Of a DNA stretch of 23,342 bases, positions 1-23,342 are shown piece by piece. The stretch covers positions 1 to 23,342 of the IMG/VR virus record IMGVR_UViG_3300044530_001486, one strand, 5' to 3'. The first letter of the stretch is position 1; each line of letters starts with the position of its first letter. This stretch comes from a virus. The notes below the pieces were generated by a model that ran no database searches, had not been told where the DNA came from, and was given only the letters and a program-made list of their open reading frames with translations. The position numbers and the translations under genes are program-made.

Positions 1-1944
1 GTTTAGTCCTGTGATTCCAGCCTTTTCGTTTCCAAAAATTCTTGCGCCAATTTGCGTTTCTGAACGGTTATAGCGCATTCTCATTCGCGCCTGTGCAAGT
101 CTTCCAGGCGTATAACCAGGTGTTAATGGACCGACAGCTGGACCCATTAAGTTTCGCGGAGTTCCTGTTGCGCCACCGTAGTACGCAGCGTGAGTTGTTG
201 GCAGAGTGCTACCCATCCCCGTTCCGGTTGGTACTGGTCCTCCGGTGCGCCCACTTGAAAATCCAGGCGCTCTAGGTCCGCCAACGCCAGGACCAGCAAT
301 GGTCACGTTCGTTGCATTTACATTCATTGTGCTTAGATTGCTTGGAAGAAATCCGCCCTTATTTTGAGACATTTTTTTCCCACCAACAAACATGGCCATC
401 AGAGGCAACAGAGAGCCAAACATCCCAGCACCGGCAAACTTCGTCATACCACCAGCAAGAAGGTCGAACATTTCTTTAACGCCCTTAACAACATCATTAA
501 TCAATGGCAAAACGTCAAAAAATGCTGCTTTAAGTTTCATTGCGAAATTAGAAACCGAACGTATAAGCTCACCAGCTCTTTCACCAAATTCTAGAACTTG
601 GGTTCGGTTCTCTTGTAGGAGGTCATTAAATTGCGTGAAGTTTTGTGCGCCAGCTTTTATCGCGCTCCAGATTGGTGAGAAGGCTTCTTCTAAAACCTTT
701 GCACCTTCAAGGAATGGTCGCATCGAGTCAACCATTTGCTTCCAGCCGTATTTAAAACCATCCCACCAATCCCCGATTCGACCAAAAAACCCCTCAGCTC
801 TTGGTAGCCATTTTTCTACAAGATTAACCATCCAGGTGCTTGTTTTGTCGACAGCGGAAACCAGTCCATCCATCAGGGTCCCAGTACCAAATGCCGAAAC
901 AGCTCCCATCATTCTTTTTAAATCACGAGATATTATTCTAAAAATTTTCTGCATTGCAACTTTTGCTGGCTCAAGAAATTGCCCACCGAAATCAGCAAAC
1001 TGACCACGCACTAAATTGAAAAAGGTTTTTATTTGTCCGATAAGAGTTTGATTGACAGCATCAAACTGGCCAGCAACTCCACCAAGCTTTGCGAGTTCTC
1101 CAGACATAATTAACTGCTTGAGTTGGTCTTTTGTTTTTACATTGGCTTTTTTCAATGCTTCAGACATTTCTGGACCGATTGCTGTTGCTGCGGCCTTTAC
1201 GTCACCTAGGCTTTTCTTTGAGTCAGAAAGGGCCGCAATCATTACTGCGACTTTTTCTGCTGCCGCACCAGGGTCTTGGCCTGCAGCACCAAAGTCCATT
1301 AGCGATTTGAACAACCCAGTTGAAGCATTTATCTGTGGTGTTGTCATAGTTTTCGACATTGATGCATATGCTTTATTTAGGTTTGCCACACCAAGACCAG
1401 CCAGGCTCGCGTCCATCTGGAGCGCACGCATAGCAACTTGCGCTTGATTGAGGCCTGAACCAAACTCGCCTGCACCTTTACCCCTGTAGGCAAACATTGC
1501 GGCCTGTTGCTCTCGTATTGCCGCTGCGGCAGTAGCAATCGTCACGGCAGCAGCGGCAGCACCACCGGCTATGACCTGCATAGCTCCAGCGTAGGCTTTG
1601 GCGAGAAATTTGCCAGCAATAAACAAACCGTGGATACCAATCATTGCAGCGCCCATTAAGGCCATTTCAAGGATTACACCCTTTAGGGCCATCGTTACGA
1701 ATTTAGTTAATACTCCGCCGAAAGCTTTAACTCCTTTGTCAAGGAAGTCAAAATGCCTTTTAAGTTGATTGGTGCTTTTTGTCAGCCCATTGTCCATTTT
1801 GTTCAGATAGGTGTTTACGTCGCTGCGTCCTGATGAAAACTTTCCAGACTCACGCTTTAGGCGTTTAATTGCCTGCGTAGTTTTTTCAATCGAGGTAGTC
1901 CTTGCGTCTACATCAATTTTTATGACGATTTTTTCGTCTGCCAT
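1..1944 (-). CDS. Tail tape measure protein, N-terminal part (runs off left edge)
   Basis: The frame is open for 648 codons from ATG at 1944 to the window edge, so the C-terminus is missing. The role is inferred: it sets tail length inside the tube and takes part in DNA ejection. The first 70 residues are charged and helical. Residues of about 76-143 form a long hydrophobic, alanine/glycine-rich stretch, followed by mixed helical sequence typical of tape measures, and then a glycine/proline-rich, low-complexity part near the left edge. It lies directly after the frameshifted chaperone pair, which is the standard position. The Shine-Dalgarno is GGAG/AAAGG just upstream. FSSGR motifs occur at residues 36-40 and 562-566; they resemble the repeats in the protease polyprotein at the other end of the window. 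Family assignment rests on composition, size and position rather than on a catalytic motif. Confidence 0.85.
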   Translation of the reverse strand, partial: MADEKIVIKIDVDARTTSIEKTTQAIKRLKRESGKFSSGRSDVNTYLNKMDNGLTKSTNQLKRHFDFLDKGVKAFGGVLTKFVTMALKGVILEMALMGAAMIGIHGLFIAGKFLAKAYAGAMQVIAGGAAAAAVTIATAAAAIREQQAAMFAYRGKGAGEFGSGLNQAQVAMRALQMDASLAGLGVANLNKAYASMSKTMTTPQINASTGLFKSLMDFGAAGQDPGAAAEKVAVMIAALSDSKKSLGDVKAAATAIGPEMSEALKKANVKTKDQLKQLIMSGELAKLGGVAGQFDAVNQTLIGQIKTFFNLVRGQFADFGGQFLEPAKVAMQKIFRIISRDLKRMMGAVSAFGTGTLMDGLVSAVDKTSTWMVNLVEKWLPRAEGFFGRIGDWWDGFKYGWKQMVDSMRPFLEGAKVLEEAFSPIWSAIKAGAQNFTQFNDLLQENRTQVLEFGERAGELIRSVSNFAMKLKAAFFDVLPLINDVVKGVKEMFDLLAGGMTKFAGAGMFGSLLPLMAMFVGGKKMSQNKGGFLPSNLSTMNVNATNVTIAGPGVGGPRAPGFSSGRTGGPVPTGTGMGSTLPTTHAAYYGGATGTPRNLMGPAVGPLTPGYTPGRLAQARMRMRYNRSETQIGARIFGNEKAGITGLN

Positions 1945-15857: not shown

Positions 15858-17918
15858 ATGGCATGGAATCAATCGAGCAATAAATCGCTCGCAAACGCAC
15901 AATCCAAGGAGCTTGGACCTGGCGCGCCCGTAGCGCAGAACCCAAGCTACGCAGGCCGCCCATACAGGGACTCGTGGGATGTCGAACGTGCTTACCGAGA
16001 GGGGATGCAGAAGGTTACTTGGGTTGCAAGATGTATCGACGCAATCGCAGGGAATCAAGCGCGACTCCCAATTATTCTGCGCAAAGACAACTCTCCAGAT
16101 GGGGAGATTCTTGTTGGCAATAAGGCAAAAAATAATTCGTTGCTTGAGGTCTTGAATACCAAATCGAACGTCGGTGAAAACTCTTTCATTTTTAGATACA
16201 GAATGTCCGCCCAACTTCTGCTTGGTACGCGTGGCGTATTTATCGAAAAGGTCCGCGGCAGGGATGGAAGAATAATCGGTCTAAACCTCTTGCCGCCCCA
16301 GTCAACAGCCCCAATACCGGACGCAAAAAAGTTTGTTTCTGGCTATGAGGTGCAGATGCCCCACGGGCAAAAAATCATAATGAAGCCAGAGGATGTTTGC
16401 TGGATTAGACGGCCTCACCCGCTTGACCCATATCTGTCACTAACCCCACTTGAGTCGGCTGGCGTTGCGATAGAGATTGAGAACTTGGCAAAGCTTTACA
16501 ACAGAAACTATCTACTCAACGACGGAAGACCTGGCGGTCTGCTTGTTTTGCGTGGAGAAATCGAAGATGACGACAAGGAAGAATTAAAGAGCAGATTCCG
16601 TGGAAACATCGGACGAGCTGGACATACAACGGTTATTTCTGCTGATGACGGTGTTGATTACGTAGACACTTCTGCCTCGCCAAGAGATGTTGCGTATGCG
16701 CAAATGAGGCAGATTACAAAAGAAGAAATCCTTGCATCATTTGGTGTGCCGGAGTCGGTCATTGGTAATGCCGCTGGACGAACATTTAGTAATGCAAGCG
16801 AAGAAATACGTGTTTTCTGGATGGAGACGATGCTTCCGCACCTTGAGCCACTAGCGCGCTCACTTGATGAATTAGATGACGAGTACTACATCGACTTTGA
16901 CACCAGCGAGGTTCCAATTCTTCAGCTCTACAAGCAAGAGCGAGAAAGATACCTGATGCAGGAATTCCAAACTGGGCTCATCAGTAACAACGAGTACAGA
17001 ATAGGTTCCGGAAGAAAAGAAGTTGAAGCAGACCTTGCCGACTCCCTGCTCATGAATCCAAACCTAATCCCAATCGCGAATACAAAGAAAAAAATGGAGA
17101 CCGCTCCGTCCGCAGAGATGGGTGGTGCACCAATGCCGGGAGCACCTATGCCTGGTGCCCCAATGCCGCCAGCGCCAATGCCCGGAATGGAGGGGCAGCC
17201 TCCGCTTGACCCGAATACCATGCAGGGGGCCTTGGCACAGACCGAAGCTCCGGCCCCAGACCAGTTGGCGCAAAGCACGATTCCCCCAGAGGCCCTTGCT
17301 GCCGTTGCGACAACCGCAGAGCCGGTACCTGGTGGTGCAGCATCTGCAGAGCAATCACAGATGATGTACAAATCCATGGAAGATGACCTTCAAGAGAAGA
17401 GCATAGGGGCGCTGAACAGGTGGAACGAGATACTCAGCAGAAGCATAGAGCGAGTCATCGAGAGACAGCAACGAGTTGTTCTTGAGAAATCAAGCGGCGC
17501 AAAAGCTAAGAAGTCATTGTTCGCTGGCACTCTGGAAATAGATTCGATTCTTTCCCCAGAGGTTTGGGATAAGCAAATGGACGAGGACATACGACCAGTC
17601 ATCTCGGCGATTATTCAAGACTCATTCAATATGCACAATGAGGGATATGGGCAAAAGTCTGAAAAAAGTATAAATAAATCAGACCTTGACGCACAAATAG
17701 ATTCTCAAATGGCTCGCATAAAGAGCATTAACATAGAAAACTTTAACCAGCTCTCCTCGATGATGTTCAACTCACTCTCTGTCATGGGCGAAGAAGAGAG
17801 GGCGGCATCCTTCCGTGGAGCCCTTGTGAGCATGTACACGAATCTGGTTGGAAAACAAAACATTGAGATTGCAGAAGACGAATCACGCAGAGCGTGGAAG
17901 TTCGGACAGTTCATCTAG
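15858..17918 (+). CDS. Portal protein (HK97-type) with extended C-terminus
   Basis: A 686-residue protein. The portal signatures are visible: W-x-R-C-I-D-A-I-A near residue 55, the LLGTRGVFIEKVRGRDG strand pair, LLPPQSTAPIPD, LSLTPLESAGVAIE and the C-terminal crown region ILASFGVPESVIGNAAGRTFSNASEE (about 295-320), typical of HK97 portals. It forms the ring at the capsid vertex for DNA entry. Most portals of this type are about 400-500 residues; here a proline/methionine-rich linker with GAPMP repeats (about 415-445) is followed by about 170 more residues, helical and charged (MEDDLQEKSIGALNRWNEILSRSIERVIERQQR…). Start ATG 15858 lies just after the small membrane gene; the Shine-Dalgarno is weak. 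Plus-strand late gene. Confidence 0.92.
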   Translation: MAWNQSSNKSLANAQSKELGPGAPVAQNPSYAGRPYRDSWDVERAYREGMQKVTWVARCIDAIAGNQARLPIILRKDNSPDGEILVGNKAKNNSLLEVLNTKSNVGENSFIFRYRMSAQLLLGTRGVFIEKVRGRDGRIIGLNLLPPQSTAPIPDAKKFVSGYEVQMPHGQKIIMKPEDVCWIRRPHPLDPYLSLTPLESAGVAIEIENLAKLYNRNYLLNDGRPGGLLVLRGEIEDDDKEELKSRFRGNIGRAGHTTVISADDGVDYVDTSASPRDVAYAQMRQITKEEILASFGVPESVIGNAAGRTFSNASEEIRVFWMETMLPHLEPLARSLDELDDEYYIDFDTSEVPILQLYKQERERYLMQEFQTGLISNNEYRIGSGRKEVEADLADSLLMNPNLIPIANTKKKMETAPSAEMGGAPMPGAPMPGAPMPPAPMPGMEGQPPLDPNTMQGALAQTEAPAPDQLAQSTIPPEALAAVATTAEPVPGGAASAEQSQMMYKSMEDDLQEKSIGALNRWNEILSRSIERVIERQQRVVLEKSSGAKAKKSLFAGTLEIDSILSPEVWDKQMDEDIRPVISAIIQDSFNMHNEGYGQKSEKSINKSDLDAQIDSQMARIKSINIENFNQLSSMMFNSLSVMGEEERAASFRGALVSMYTNLVGKQNIEIAEDESRRAWKFGQFI

Positions 17919-18037: not shown

Positions 18038-21000
18038 ATGCCAAACTCTAATTTCGGAAACATTCAATACAAGGCGTCCAATGGCCTCATCAACCTTGAT
18101 GAAGCACAGGGAATTGTTGAGTGTTTTGTTTCTGGAATTGGCAACAAGGATTCAGTAGGCGACATCTGCGCCACTGGTGCATTCGCTAAGAGCCTTCAGC
18201 GCCGCAAGCCGCGTGTCGTATGGGGTCACAACTGGAACGACCCAATCGGCAAGGTTCTAGAAATATACGAAGTTCCAGCATCAGACCAGAGACTTCCAAT
18301 GAAGATGAAGATGGCTGGCATCGGTGGATTGTACGCAAAGGTGCAGTTCAATCTTCAGTCAGAAAAAGGCAAAGAAGCATTTGCTAACGTAGCCTTCTTT
18401 GGCGAAGAGCAAGAGTGGTCAATCGGTTACAAAACCCTCAGAGCACAATACGACGACAACCTTCAGGCGAATGTTCTTTACGAAGTAGAGTTGTACGAAG
18501 TTTCCCCAGTCCTCCATGGAGCCAACCAATTGACAGGAACAATCTCTGTCAAGAGCGACGAAGAGAAGATGCACGGAATGATGCCGATGGTTATTGGTTC
18601 CCCTGCACCACAGGGTCCCCGAAGGGACGGACTTTTCGACGAGGGTGTTTCGCAAAGAATAAGCGGACCCCAGTTGGCTGGCGTTGTTGCGGAGCTTTCG
18701 CGCCGTGCGGCAGGTCCAGTAATGGTTGTTGAGGCTACAGAAAATTCTATTGTTTTTGTTAAGCCAGGAAAAGGAAAGTTTAGAATTGGATACCACTTCA
18801 CAGGAAGTGAGTACATGTTTGGCAAGCCAGAACTGATTCAGGCCGAGCAACCAAAACCAGCAGTTCAATCTGGTCCTTCGCCAATCCCAGGTGTTGTTGC
18901 AAAACCCAGCAAGCCATCAACAAACAATCCAGGAATGGCAATGCCTGTCGCAATGAAGCCAGTCAATGGCGGAATGGTTATGGTTCCGTTGGCGCCTGTC
19001 GAATACGAAGGCTCTGACAAGAATAAGAAGCCGGAGCTTGGCGCAGAAGAGAGCGAGCTTGCTGAGTCGCTTGTTCGTATTGCCAGCAAGTACGGAAAGT
19101 TTGATGAAGACGGTGATGGCATTTGGGCCGGATACTATCCTCCAGCAGAAAACAAAGTAAAGGACATTGGCGTCAAGTGCTCAAACTGCGTCCTTTACCA
19201 AGGTGAAGGTAAGTGCAAGATTCTTGACTTCAAGGTCGAAGATGAAGCCAAGTGCAGATTCGCAATTATTCCAGATGGCGTTGTAGTCGGCTTTGGCAAA
19301 AAACAATACAATGACATCCTTGATGATGATGAAATCAAGATGGTCGAAGACATCGAAGCCAAGTACCCAGGCGAGTTTATTCTTGGTGCTTTGCGCAACA
19401 CGGTTAAGAAGCGTCGCAAGAAGCGTCGCTCCTACAAGACGCTCGAAGAGTGGGGCACAGAAGAGAGAGAGCTCGAGGAGAAGGGTCTTGACTCATTTTT
19501 GGCGCAAGACCAGTCATACGTAATTCCTGTCAATCTTGAGGACGCATTTTATTTTAAGTCGGTAATCGACCCAGTTCTTGAGTACCACAGAATAGATACC
19601 ACCGTCAACGAGTACGGAATTGTAATCAATTCACCGCTCGACCAGGAATCAAAAGACGCAATCAGCGCAGCAACGAACTCGGCTTACGCTCTTTTAAAAA
19701 AAAAAATAGCTTCTAGCAGTATTGAAGAAAAAGCGCTCGGCCGCAGAATAGCTAGCCGCGCGATAGATAGACCGAACATCGGCGGCAAGAAGCGCCGTGG
19801 CGGACGCGGCATGGGAGTCCCCAGTGGAGACCTTGACCCAAGGACTCGTCGTGACAGCAACCTAGATGGAACGCTGTTTGACAACGTCCCAGGCTGGGAA
19901 CAGCCAGACCCAACACCAGACGGCCCTGGTTCAATAAACAACCCCAAGCCATCCAGGCGTCAGCTAGTTGATACGGCAAAACCAGATGGTAAAGAAAAAC
20001 TCTCTAGCGGAACAAGGAACCTTCGTCGACACGCCGACCGCTCCGAGGACATGGAAAAGCAATTTCCTAACGCCGAAGAAAATCAGAAGCGTATAGACCA
20101 CGAGGCAATTGCAAAAGCGTGGGAAGAGCAGGGTCTTGGTTGGCAAGAAGTTCCACGCTATAACTCTGACAGCAATTTTAGCTCAGACTATTTGCGTGGT
20201 CGTGAAATTGGCGTAAACCAATCACGAGTTATGTGGAATGGCGACTCCGTAAGGAAGCGCCCTGCAAAGTTTAACGAAAAGGCAAAAGCATCAATAGAAT
20301 ATAGCGACTGGTTTTCAAGCTACATAAGGTCTGTTGGCGCCTACATTGATGCACATAGCAAAGATGATTCCGACAATTGGGATGGAATCGAGTCCGCCAT
20401 CAAGGATGATGTTAAGGCAAAGTATCCAGATGTACGGGAGCGAAGCAAAGAGTACATTGCCAACCTTAATCAAAGCCTAAATAGCCTTGGTCTTTTGGAC
20501 GCAGGAGACAAGAAAAAGAAATTAAAGAAGGTGAAAAAAGGTGAAGATTCACAGGGTGGACCTGACCTTCAAGAACTTCGCAAACTCAATTCAGAGGGCA
20601 AACTTTCTTCAGGTAAGGAAGATAGCGAAGTTGACGCTGAATTTCTAAAAGCAAAAATAAAAGAGACAGAGGACAGGCTTAACGATTTGGGGGACAACCC
20701 GCTATTGCGTGATGAGCGTAGGGCGTTACAGGCCAGAATTAAATATGCAAAAGAACTTTTAAAAGAAAAAAATTCACAAAAACGGAAACCATCTGGCCCA
20801 TCCCTTTCTTCGGGCGGGCTAGCCGAACGCCTTAAAGAAATTGATGGACTTTCTGCAGAAGAAACGTTTATACCTTACAGGCGAGGCGTGCTTGCAAGAG
20901 GGCCGCAACCTAGCGACCTTCAGCGCGAAATGTACGAGGAATTTGCAAGGTACGGTAACCAAAACGATGTTTGGGACTATCTGAACACTAGATACAGTGT

Positions 21001-23342
21001 TGAAAAATCTGACTACGAATACCGCCCTGGCGACGACGGATACTTCAGTGAAAGTGAACCTAACTACAACCTTAATGACGCAATAAAAGACTCCATGTCT
21101 GAAGAGGACATGCGGAATTTTTTGAAAGCCACAGCAGAACACGAGGCCAGCCCAGACTACGACGCATACAAAAAGGGAGGCCCACTATACGACGAGTTGA
21201 ACAAAGATGGAAAGCTTTCTTCTGGACGCACTGCGGGTAGTGGCAGGTTCGTAGCAGACCTTGAAAAGCAAATGGCAAAAGACACCGAACCGCTGGATAT
21301 CTCCGCTTACGGTGCAGGCCAATATGAGATGTTTAATAGGAGTAGGGACAACAATCCCGAACTCGACTTTGACGTCGAGGTGCAAGATGAATTAATGTCC
21401 CACCAAGATGGGGCAGAGCTCGTCGGACACACGGTAAAACTTACCGATGGTCGTAGGGGCGTAGTTGTGTCTGGGACAGGACCAGAATATGAGCTGCTAG
21501 AAAGAGATGAATTCGTCCGCGGGAATGTGGCTCGAATGTATTCTGGCGATATTGCTGTTCTAATAACAACAGACAAAGATGGAAATACGCTCGATAAATT
21601 TATTGAGCAAGATTTTGATTTCAACCTAGAGAGCAATTCTCGCGTCATCGACCCAACGATGGATTGGGATAAAGAAATTGAAGAATCTAAGACCGACGGT
21701 ACTGTCGGTGCGTTGGTGGAAAAAAATCGCATCACAGACAGTCTCTTGGAGCAGGTCTCCAAATCAGAGAGAATGTCCTCTGGTAAAAAAGATTCATCGC
21801 GTCTATCTTCGGGAGGCACACCAGATTCCGATACGCAAAAAAGACTCATAGATTCTGCCGAATCTGCCGCTAAAAAGAAATCTGATGGGACGGAAAGCTT
21901 TGCCGCAAGCGTTGCTCGCCAGTACCGCAAGGGTGGAAAATTATCAGAAAAACAATGGGCAGCATTGGACAAAATGTTTGGTGGCTCCAAACCGAAGAGT
22001 GCCCCAGAGGCATCTCGCCAAGACTCACCTAGCATTCCGTTCTCCAACAAAAAAAGAGCTATCACGGAACTTGAATCTATTCCGGAATATGACTATCCAA
22101 AAGTTGCAGCAAACAGAAAGCCAACAGTAGAACAGGCTCGCGCAATAGACGCGATGATGACTGGCGAAGACGTAAAGATATCGGCATTGGCTGCAACCGG
22201 AAAAACAACCACTGTAATCAACTTTGCGGAAAGACTAAAAGATGTAGACCCATCCGCAAGAGTCCTGTATTTGGTCTTCAACAAAAACGCCAAAGACGAT
22301 GTCGCTAAAAGAGGGATGCCAGACAATGTCAACGTTATGACGATGGATGGTGTTTCGTATAACGCGATGCGCTCAATAAACCCTCAGATGACCACAAAGA
22401 GTTTTGACCAAGCACCAGGTCATATCAAGCCAATAAAAACATTTGGAGACCGAGCGTCATATCTTGGCGTAAAGTCAATGGTCGATGAGGGGCAAGAGCT
22501 ATCGGCAACAGACGTTTACAAGAGGGTGTCTAAGGCGGTGGATGCCTTTGCTATTAGTAGCGATTCAGAAATAGGCGAGCAGCATTTTACTGGAGCATAC
22601 AACGGGAACATGGCAGTAGATAATCCAGAAATTATCGCTGAACTCATCCCGTTTGCAAAAAAAATGTGGGCCGACATGAATACGCCGCGAGTAGCCCCAA
22701 AGGGCAGCGGCAAGGGTGAGGGCATGCTCCCAATGACGAACACTCACATCACGAAAATGTGGGCCCTGACCAATCCGGATATAGGAAATTCAGAAATGGT
22801 CAACGTTGCGATGGTCGATGAAGCACAGGATATGAATCCAGTGTTCGCTGGCATCCTAAAGGGCTCAAACGGTATTCAGAGAGTTTATATTGGCGACACA
22901 AACCAGGCAATCAATGCCTGGCGCGGCGCTGATGGCAAAACGCTAAATGACGCTTACGCCAAGTACGACATGCCGATAACCGACTCGTTCCGATTTGGCA
23001 AAGAGATTGCTGGAATGGGAAATCGTTTCTTGTCTCTACTTGGAAGAAAAGAGCGCATGACTGGTAAAAAGACGGACCAATCTGGTTCGGCTGTGGATGG
23101 AATAATCGGACAAATAAATAATCCGACGATGATTCTCACCAGGTCAAACGGTGGGGCAATAGCAGCGACCCTAGACAGTTTCAAAAAGGGACTCACTGTT
23201 TTCGGTAGCAAGAATTTTAAAAATGACCTTGGTTCGTTTATCGACAACATCGAATACATGACCACAAAAGAAAATGGAACTGGATATTTTACCGACAGCA
23301 AGGGTGGAAAAATATTCGGCAAACCGAAAGAGAGCCAAGACC
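18038..23342 (+). CDS. Giant prohead protease-helicase polyprotein (runs off right edge)
   Basis: The frame is open from ATG 18038 (AAGGAG upstream) to the window end, at least 1,768 residues. Residues of about 1-165 are an S78-type prohead protease: WGHNW gives His64, EEQEWSIGYKT gives Ser128, and VSPVLHGANQ follows. Further along are DEDGDGIWAGYYPP (EF-hand-like loop), four cysteines C381/C384/C393/C406 (metal-site pattern CxxC…C…C), and a basic KKRRKKRR tract (457-464). The middle (about 560-1340) is low-complexity, acidic and repeat-bearing: [LM]SSG at 655, 856, 923, 1060, 1246 and 1256. Residues from about 1365 form a UvrD/FBH1-like SF1 helicase: Walker A AATGKTTT (1385-1392), DEAQD (1594-1598), GDTNQAINAWRGA. 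An 11-A run lies at codons 553-557. It resembles the 'polyvalent proteins' carried into host cells by phages. The capsid gene is expected downstream. Confidence 0.9.
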   Translation, partial: MPNSNFGNIQYKASNGLINLDEAQGIVECFVSGIGNKDSVGDICATGAFAKSLQRRKPRVVWGHNWNDPIGKVLEIYEVPASDQRLPMKMKMAGIGGLYAKVQFNLQSEKGKEAFANVAFFGEEQEWSIGYKTLRAQYDDNLQANVLYEVELYEVSPVLHGANQLTGTISVKSDEEKMHGMMPMVIGSPAPQGPRRDGLFDEGVSQRISGPQLAGVVAELSRRAAGPVMVVEATENSIVFVKPGKGKFRIGYHFTGSEYMFGKPELIQAEQPKPAVQSGPSPIPGVVAKPSKPSTNNPGMAMPVAMKPVNGGMVMVPLAPVEYEGSDKNKKPELGAEESELAESLVRIASKYGKFDEDGDGIWAGYYPPAENKVKDIGVKCSNCVLYQGEGKCKILDFKVEDEAKCRFAIIPDGVVVGFGKKQYNDILDDDEIKMVEDIEAKYPGEFILGALRNTVKKRRKKRRSYKTLEEWGTEERELEEKGLDSFLAQDQSYVIPVNLEDAFYFKSVIDPVLEYHRIDTTVNEYGIVINSPLDQESKDAISAATNSAYALLKKKIASSSIEEKALGRRIASRAIDRPNIGGKKRRGGRGMGVPSGDLDPRTRRDSNLDGTLFDNVPGWEQPDPTPDGPGSINNPKPSRRQLVDTAKPDGKEKLSSGTRNLRRHADRSEDMEKQFPNAEENQKRIDHEAIAKAWEEQGLGWQEVPRYNSDSNFSSDYLRGREIGVNQSRVMWNGDSVRKRPAKFNEKAKASIEYSDWFSSYIRSVGAYIDAHSKDDSDNWDGIESAIKDDVKAKYPDVRERSKEYIANLNQSLNSLGLLDAGDKKKKLKKVKKGEDSQGGPDLQELRKLNSEGKLSSGKEDSEVDAEFLKAKIKETEDRLNDLGDNPLLRDERRALQARIKYAKELLKEKNSQKRKPSGPSLSSGGLAERLKEIDGLSAEETFIPYRRGVLARGPQPSDLQREMYEEFARYGNQNDVWDYLNTRYSVEKSDYEYRPGDDGYFSESEPNYNLNDAIKDSMSEEDMRNFLKATAEHEASPDYDAYKKGGPLYDELNKDGKLSSGRTAGSGRFVADLEKQMAKDTEPLDISAYGAGQYEMFNRSRDNNPELDFDVEVQDELMSHQDGAELVGHTVKLTDGRRGVVVSGTGPEYELLERDEFVRGNVARMYSGDIAVLITTDKDGNTLDKFIEQDFDFNLESNSRVIDPTMDWDKEIEESKTDGTVGALVEKNRITDSLLEQVSKSERMSSGKKDSSRLSSGGTPDSDTQKRLIDSAESAAKKKSDGTESFAASVARQYRKGGKLSEKQWAALDKMFGGSKPKSAPEASRQDSPSIPFSNKKRAITELESIPEYDYPKVAANRKPTVEQARAIDAMMTGEDVKISALAATGKTTTVINFAERLKDVDPSARVLYLVFNKNAKDDVAKRGMPDNVNVMTMDGVSYNAMRSINPQMTTKSFDQAPGHIKPIKTFGDRASYLGVKSMVDEGQELSATDVYKRVSKAVDAFAISSDSEIGEQHFTGAYNGNMAVDNPEIIAELIPFAKKMWADMNTPRVAPKGSGKGEGMLPMTNTHITKMWALTNPDIGNSEMVNVAMVDEAQDMNPVFAGILKGSNGIQRVYIGDTNQAINAWRGADGKTLNDAYAKYDMPITDSFRFGKEIAGMGNRFLSLLGRKERMTGKKTDQSGSAVDGIIGQINNPTMILTRSNGGAIAATLDSFKKGLTVFGSKNFKNDLGSFIDNIEYMTTKENGTGYFTDSKGGKIFGKPKESQD

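Follow-up and report, generated by a model that had tools for sequence, protein, structure and literature searches.

Lineage-specific repeated motifs at domain borders of giant prohead-protease polyproteins in uncultured phages: candidate processing sites

Related systems and the locus

Polyvalent proteins of phages and plasmids combine disparate domains in one chain, including ArdC-N, MPTase-PolyVal and helicase domains (Iyer et al. 2017, PMC5512222), and they are the nearest known concept for the locus described here. Processing of such proteins by embedded peptidases has been proposed, with RNA-virus polyproteins as the analogy and zincins as the likely processors (PMC5512222). An assemblin-like (prohead protease) peptidase, where one is present, invariably sits at the C-terminus in that work, and the text searched describes no repeated cleavage word (0 occurrences of LSSG or S78), whereas in our locus the protease is N-terminal, at residues 25-176, and a lineage-specific word recurs at domain borders. 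Our literature search returned no relevant paper joining LSSG with phage, and the motif code was not found in it.

The proteases of T4 and phiKZ cut after a glutamate motif. In T4, phiKZ and SPN3US (gp21, gp175, gp245) a single phage enzyme processes a number of head and ejected proteins at a common short motif. The likeness to T4 and phiKZ drawn in the earlier note holds in logic only: cleavage there is C-terminal to a glutamate motif (for SPN3US, PMC10052503) and the words found here contain no Glu, and those proteases mainly remove N-terminal propeptides of separate genes while here the word lies between domains of giant fusions. RNA-virus polyproteins, such as those with picornavirus 3C sites, share the principle of one protease and one repeated short site per domain border, though by analogy only, as the protease is unrelated and the phages here are dsDNA tailed phages. 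The HK97-type prohead proteases (Peptidase_S78) are similar in their Pfam and PHROG matches, the adjoining portal gene and a downstream HK97-fold capsid gene with a conserved delta-domain border, but here the protease is fused to thousands of residues of cargo. We know of no repeated site word described for the Peptidase_S78 family.

The window analysed is 23,342 nt of viral DNA (IMG/VR record IMGVR_UViG_3300044530_001486, positions 1 to 23,342) and includes a giant ORF whose translation is stop-free up to the contig end (Table 1). The earlier note had placed a protease at the N-terminus of this chain, and the domain found there indeed matches Peptidase_S78 in Pfam (PF04586, E 8.4e-10, 39.5 bits, exceeding the gathering score of 21) and the head maturation protease family in PHROG (phrog_80, E 2.4e-26). 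Among 22 aligned sequences, His64 and Ser128 in two core blocks of the domain are invariant and are candidate catalytic residues, a role we take from knowledge of the Peptidase_S78 family. The gene order runs from portal through protease to the capsid module, with an HK97-type capsid gene downstream in complete relatives. Disparate activities share the chain: protease and helicase in the window, and additionally ArdC-N, MPTase-PolyVal and WYL-like domains in a relative (L003) whose protease domain is 100% identical to that of the window and whose complete protein is 3539 aa.

Table 1. Coordinates of features in the window
Feature	Position	Strand	Detail
Portal protein, directly upstream of polyprotein	15858..17918	+	PF04860 E 3.8e-49
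Giant polyprotein ORF	18038..23341	+	1768 aa read, truncated by contig end
Peptidase_S78 (caudovirus prohead serine protease) domain	18110..18565	+	polyprotein residues 25-176
Motif 1	20000..20011	+	EKLSSGTR, residue 655
Motif 2	20603..20614	+	GKLSSGKE, residue 856
Motif 3	20804..20815	+	PSLSSGGL, residue 923
Motif 4	21215..21226	+	GKLSSGRT, residue 1060
Motif 5	21773..21784	+	ERMSSGKK, residue 1246
Motif 6	21803..21814	+	SRLSSGGT, residue 1256
UvrD-like helicase region (truncated)	22046..23269	+	residues 1337-1744; phrog_1967 E 1.2e-42; PF00580
GFSSGR copy, tape-measure-like ORF (complement 1..1944)	250..261	-	residue 562
KFSSGR copy, tape-measure-like ORF (complement 1..1944)	1828..1839	-	residue 36

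Several features of the region stand apart from the repeat. An eleven-A run at 19696-19706 within the polyprotein coding sequence (LLKKKIASSS) is a possible slippage site. A helical unit of ~50 aa, FAxSVxxQxxxxGxLSxxQWxxL, seems to be present twice in one polyprotein, at 21875-22000 of the window and at the C-terminus of the L003 polyprotein. The ~485 aa gene that follows the polyprotein was considered as the major capsid protein and rejected, being acidic and PepSY-containing with no capsid similarity in alignment; the capsid gene is located further downstream. Acidic proteins of ~450-570 aa with a PepSY domain (L082:10884-12338 and homologues) have a conserved C-terminal DGSYPI...AIQAFGRAKDK unit, found likewise at the end of the GMA6 and DalanDe proteases (Gordonia phages); these acidic proteins are possibly scaffolds.

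A protease-domain scan of IMG/VR gave 542 related stretches, 80 of which were kept. The gene for WhiB was present in all 12 relative genomes tested (G001-G007, G010, G011, G014-G016), and the hosts are therefore probably actinobacteria. Identity of the capsid protein to its counterparts in Gordonia and Brevibacterium phages is 46-49%. No cultured phage is more than 60% identical in protease or capsid protein, no cultured isolate matches polyprotein segment 640-874, and the five isolate proteases tested have no such repeated word. Genome contigs searched for named hosts yielded three MAG contigs only, probably phage contigs. The protease was seen in MAG contigs labelled Gammaproteobacteria and Phycisphaerae (L187, L188 and L189), which are probably misbinned phage contigs; L188 carries a GLxSRR-like word.

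The [LM]SSG repeat and its placement

The six [LM]SSG copies that the earlier note had read between 20000 and 21814 are exact on the translation of 18038..23341, and its estimate that chance would give about one or fewer was generous, as composition predicts 0.09 copies. In shuffled sequences no tetrapeptide exceeded 3 copies, while the window polyprotein has 5 LSSG. The six copies are six different 12-base strings, placing the repeat at the amino-acid and not the DNA level; likewise all 14 copies of L003 and 19 of the 20 of G006 are distinct 12-mers, and a DNA-level repeat is ruled out by the differing codons.

The repeat continues beyond residue 1256, as seen in L003, where 13 [LM]SSG copies (655, 856, 923, 1060, 1246, 1256, 1904, 2084, 2405, 2605, 2747, 3054 and 3452) are joined by one FSSG. 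Some relatives accept F as the first residue, and L or F precedes SSG in all 14 instances in the G001 polyprotein. The word extends to [K/G/R]-[L/F/M]-S-S-G-[R/K/A]-[R/K], with no information further out (237 distinct contexts); these contexts were selected by the core, and the two flanks were not used in selection. Outside the giant proteins [LMF]SSG is near background (observed versus expected: 5 vs 2.8 in G001, 2 vs 1.1 in G006, 2 vs 1.1 in G005), the small excess being partly due to the tape-measure protein. Complete relatives sharing the protease domain have proteins of 2.5-4.7 kaa with 5-20 motif copies, and the check proposed in the earlier note, conservation of the repeat across homologues with changing spacers, came out strongly positive. 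The earlier description of the copies as always lying between divergent segments fits the later segments but fails for 655-856, which is well conserved among relatives.

Relative to recognised domains, the placement of the repeat is at the borders, in support of the processing suggested in the earlier note. None of 70 motifs in seven proteins falls inside a Pfam domain, compared with a mean of 21, and never zero, in 20,000 rotations; as in viral polyproteins, the site word thus recurs at domain borders and outside folded domains. Motif copies bracket UvrD helicase, ArdC antirestriction, WYL/HTH, KTSC and exonuclease domains, and UvrD, ArdC-MPTase and RNase_T units are flanked by motifs within 7-130 aa in independent architectures. 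ArdC-N begins 7-13 aa past a motif in five proteins (L003, G006, L032, L067, G005), and the distance from the end of the UvrD C-terminal domain to the next motif is 22-36 aa in five (22 aa in L003, motif 1904). RNase_T of G006 lies between motifs 3136 and 3418. The same holds for other words: in G010 the exonuclease domain (736-965) sits between ISGRM at 694 and 978, with DnaJ and zeta-toxin-like domains between ISGRM motifs 2630, 2884 and 3319, and in G014 the ArdC-MPTase unit (1065-1321) is between GFxS motifs 992 and 1519. In an AlphaFold2 model of residues 640-1345 all six window motifs have pLDDT < 50, which lends weak support to this placement because 63% of that model is itself < 50; confidence is low overall (mean pLDDT 46 for 640-1345 and 53 for the N-terminal 670 aa).

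Lineage-specific words in unrelated proteins

Relatives with short polyproteins have no LSSG. The earlier note had set homologues lacking the repeat against its own proposal; such homologues exist, but most bear a substitute repeated word. A search for enriched gapped four-residue patterns assigned GL[ARS]S[ST]T to G004, LRSSG to G007, GARSxS to L064, GFASRG to G014, RGMASR to G018, GLAS to G015, ISGRM to G010 and G011, and I[ST]GKM to G013. Word scores were 13-32 with the giants of a genome pooled, and 8 for L064, against at most 6 in single-protein shuffles. The same search gave no clear word for G016, G017, L068 and L070, and in G010, G011 and G013 the S78 protein itself is without a copy of its genome's word.

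The table of genomes against words is nearly diagonal: G007 has 19 LRS[SG]G and 1 GLxS[ST][TS], and G004 has 22 GLxS[ST][TS] and 0 LRS[SG]G. Between these two genomes, five homologous protein pairs each carry the word of their own genome. At one exactly aligned site in the polyprotein the flanks are kept and the word is changed (GLASSSKSPRTEIT / LRSSGKSPRTEIT), and the same is seen in another giant (GLSSSTSSLKPKPS / LRSSGSSLKPKPS). Similarly, G015 and G018 have GLAS and GMASR, respectively, at aligned sites in four proteins. Alignment programs may be drawn to similar words, making the p-values for aligned sites optimistic. More weight rests on the conserved flanks, and a large number of the sites in these protein pairs fail to align.

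Within a genome the word of the polyprotein recurs in other giant late proteins, among them a MuF-like head protein and a tape-measure protein, at some homologous positions in relatives. In G005, GLSSG copies (M variants included for the polyprotein) number 14 in the polyprotein, 6 in a second giant, 4 in a separate ArdC protein and 3 in a fourth giant, and the C-terminus of the second giant, directly after a GLSSG, matches a head-morphogenesis family. Second giants of 2.2-2.6 kaa with the word were also observed at L089:4261-11274 (minus strand) and as cluster-2 homologues in G001, G003, G006 and G009. Tape-measure proteins of six genomes hold 10 copies of their own genome's word versus 0.44 expected. 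Two of these copies are in the window (Table 1), in an ORF whose homologue in G006 matches the tape measure family phrog_167. A head protease would not be expected to have its word in a tail protein. G004 also encodes an orphan giant of 3150 aa (L197:12451-20000 continuing in L198; 81451-90900), far from structural genes, with five GLxS[ST]T and no domain recognised over its first 2516 aa.

Candidate processing and the alternatives

A word that is shared across proteins of one genome and differs between lineages makes recognition in trans, by a factor that itself differs between lineages, hard to avoid. On the present sequence comparisons the word is best explained as a site of proteolytic processing, with the N-terminal S78 prohead protease as the likeliest enzyme, and we assign this explanation a probability of roughly 0.55. 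The self-processing sites suggested in the earlier note would be right in kind but too narrow, as the word is common to other giants and each lineage has its own. The ORF would then be a polyvalent-type cargo polyprotein of an actinobacteriophage, in which the N-terminal S78 prohead protease is followed by cargo units, namely the helicase and, in complete relatives, also ArdC antirestriction, HTH, WYL and exonuclease units. Flexible linkers between the units would each present [K/R/G]-[L/F/M]-S-S-G-[K/R] as a protease site. During assembly the S78 domain would cut this motif in cis and in trans, freeing each unit, and would also cut the identical word in other giant late proteins, with the protease of each lineage preferring its own word. 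What the sequences show is the motif, its copy number, its domain-border placement, its presence in several proteins and its joint replacement from one lineage to another; from these we infer cleavage, the protease responsible, the scissile bond and the packaging of products. Gene position and domains suggest that the polyprotein may be delivered into the host with the DNA.

For the scissile bond, hydrophobic-x|Ser (LS|SG, LA|SST, LR|SSG, FA|SRG, MA|SR) is a guess of moderate weight. It is drawn from the aligned words, from the capsid-protein border, which reads x-[ST]-[ILV]-G in all lineages and would be cut as x|[S/T]-[I/L/V]-G, and from a Ser at P1' in SPN3US and P1: the SPN3US protease prefers P1' Ser (PMC10052503), and the mature P1 capsid protein begins with Ser (PMC9024508). 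ISGRM fits only loosely (IS|G). In the LSSG clade the capsid protein carries QL[ST]S[RHS]E five residues ahead of the conserved [ST]IG border, a feature lacking in the other clades (L083:3609-4982 and 80 capsid loci). The capsid border was set aside as no more than partial proof of protease specificity, since the non-LSSG clades do not follow their word.

In this analysis S78 alone among proteases was recognised in every one of these genomes. The main difficulty is that lineages differing in their words have an S78 domain that is nearly invariant around the conserved His and Ser, so that the expected co-variation of protease and word is not visible. Also counting against processing by S78 are the capsid borders that depart from the word in some lineages, the word in the tail-located tape-measure protein, and the S78 proteins of G010, G011 and G013 that lack a copy. 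The change of specificity may lie in a few residues, in another part of the protein or in another factor, and a docking partner and a different protease remain live rivals.

It is possible, though rather unlikely, that nothing is cut and that the word is a docking or encapsidation tag, a short linear motif bound by a rapidly evolving protein of the phage (scaffold, capsid or tail chaperone), so that each cargo unit is caught during assembly. Any trans recognition would account for lineage-specific words common to several proteins, and docking would further account for the unchanged S78 domain and for the word in the tape-measure protein, a location hard to reconcile with a protease confined to the head. 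In phage P1 a short N-terminal signal directs DarB to the head (PMC9024508), but the signals of P1 and T4 are N-terminal and one or two tags per protein would be enough; 14-20 copies that mark almost all domain borders and flank domains on either side are more readily explained by cutting than by docking.

Less likely still is cleavage by a different protease, be it a zincin of the ArdC type, a phage enzyme that escaped recognition here or a host enzyme with a specificity that depends on the host, in which last case the word would follow the host. Such an enzyme would explain why the word changes while the S78 domain barely does and why it occurs in both tail and head proteins, and processing of polyvalent proteins by zincins has been proposed (Iyer et al. 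2017, PMC5512222). However, the zincin domain MPTase-PolyVal is absent from five genomes that all have words (G004, G007, G009, G010 and G011, with G007 and G009 possibly partial), disfavouring it as a universal processor, and among the probably actinobacterial hosts this analysis identified no host protease with such a site. That the word is an ordinary flexible linker, or a DNA junction spread as a linker cassette by recombination and domain shuffling, is very improbable: the linkers that hold the motifs are indeed rich in Ser, Gly and Lys, and relatives show shuffled domains, but the 12-mers differ between copies, the word is swapped at homologous sites with flanks retained, and Ser/Gly composition is ruled out by same-composition shuffles that never come near the observed score and by the L/F-only position ahead of SSG.

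Returning to processing, we consider it about an even bet that these phages have a lineage-specific cleavage code. Under such a code, an assembly protease particular to the lineage would read that lineage's own word wherever it marks a domain border in several unrelated giant virion proteins (protease polyprotein, MuF-like head protein, ArdC protein and tape measure), and the ~15-30 sites of a genome would all be rewritten together when the code changes.

Were the word a site of processing, cut sites and products could be predicted by the dozen from sequence alone for a large group of uncultured actinobacterial phages. A site preference would also be gained for the S78-family prohead proteases, for which it is to our knowledge otherwise poorly defined. 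Tailed phages would then load anti-restriction and replication enzymes by means of a polyprotein strategy like that of RNA viruses. The 15-30 sites that change together across several proteins offer a natural experiment in the co-evolution of a protease, or a docking partner, with its set of substrates.
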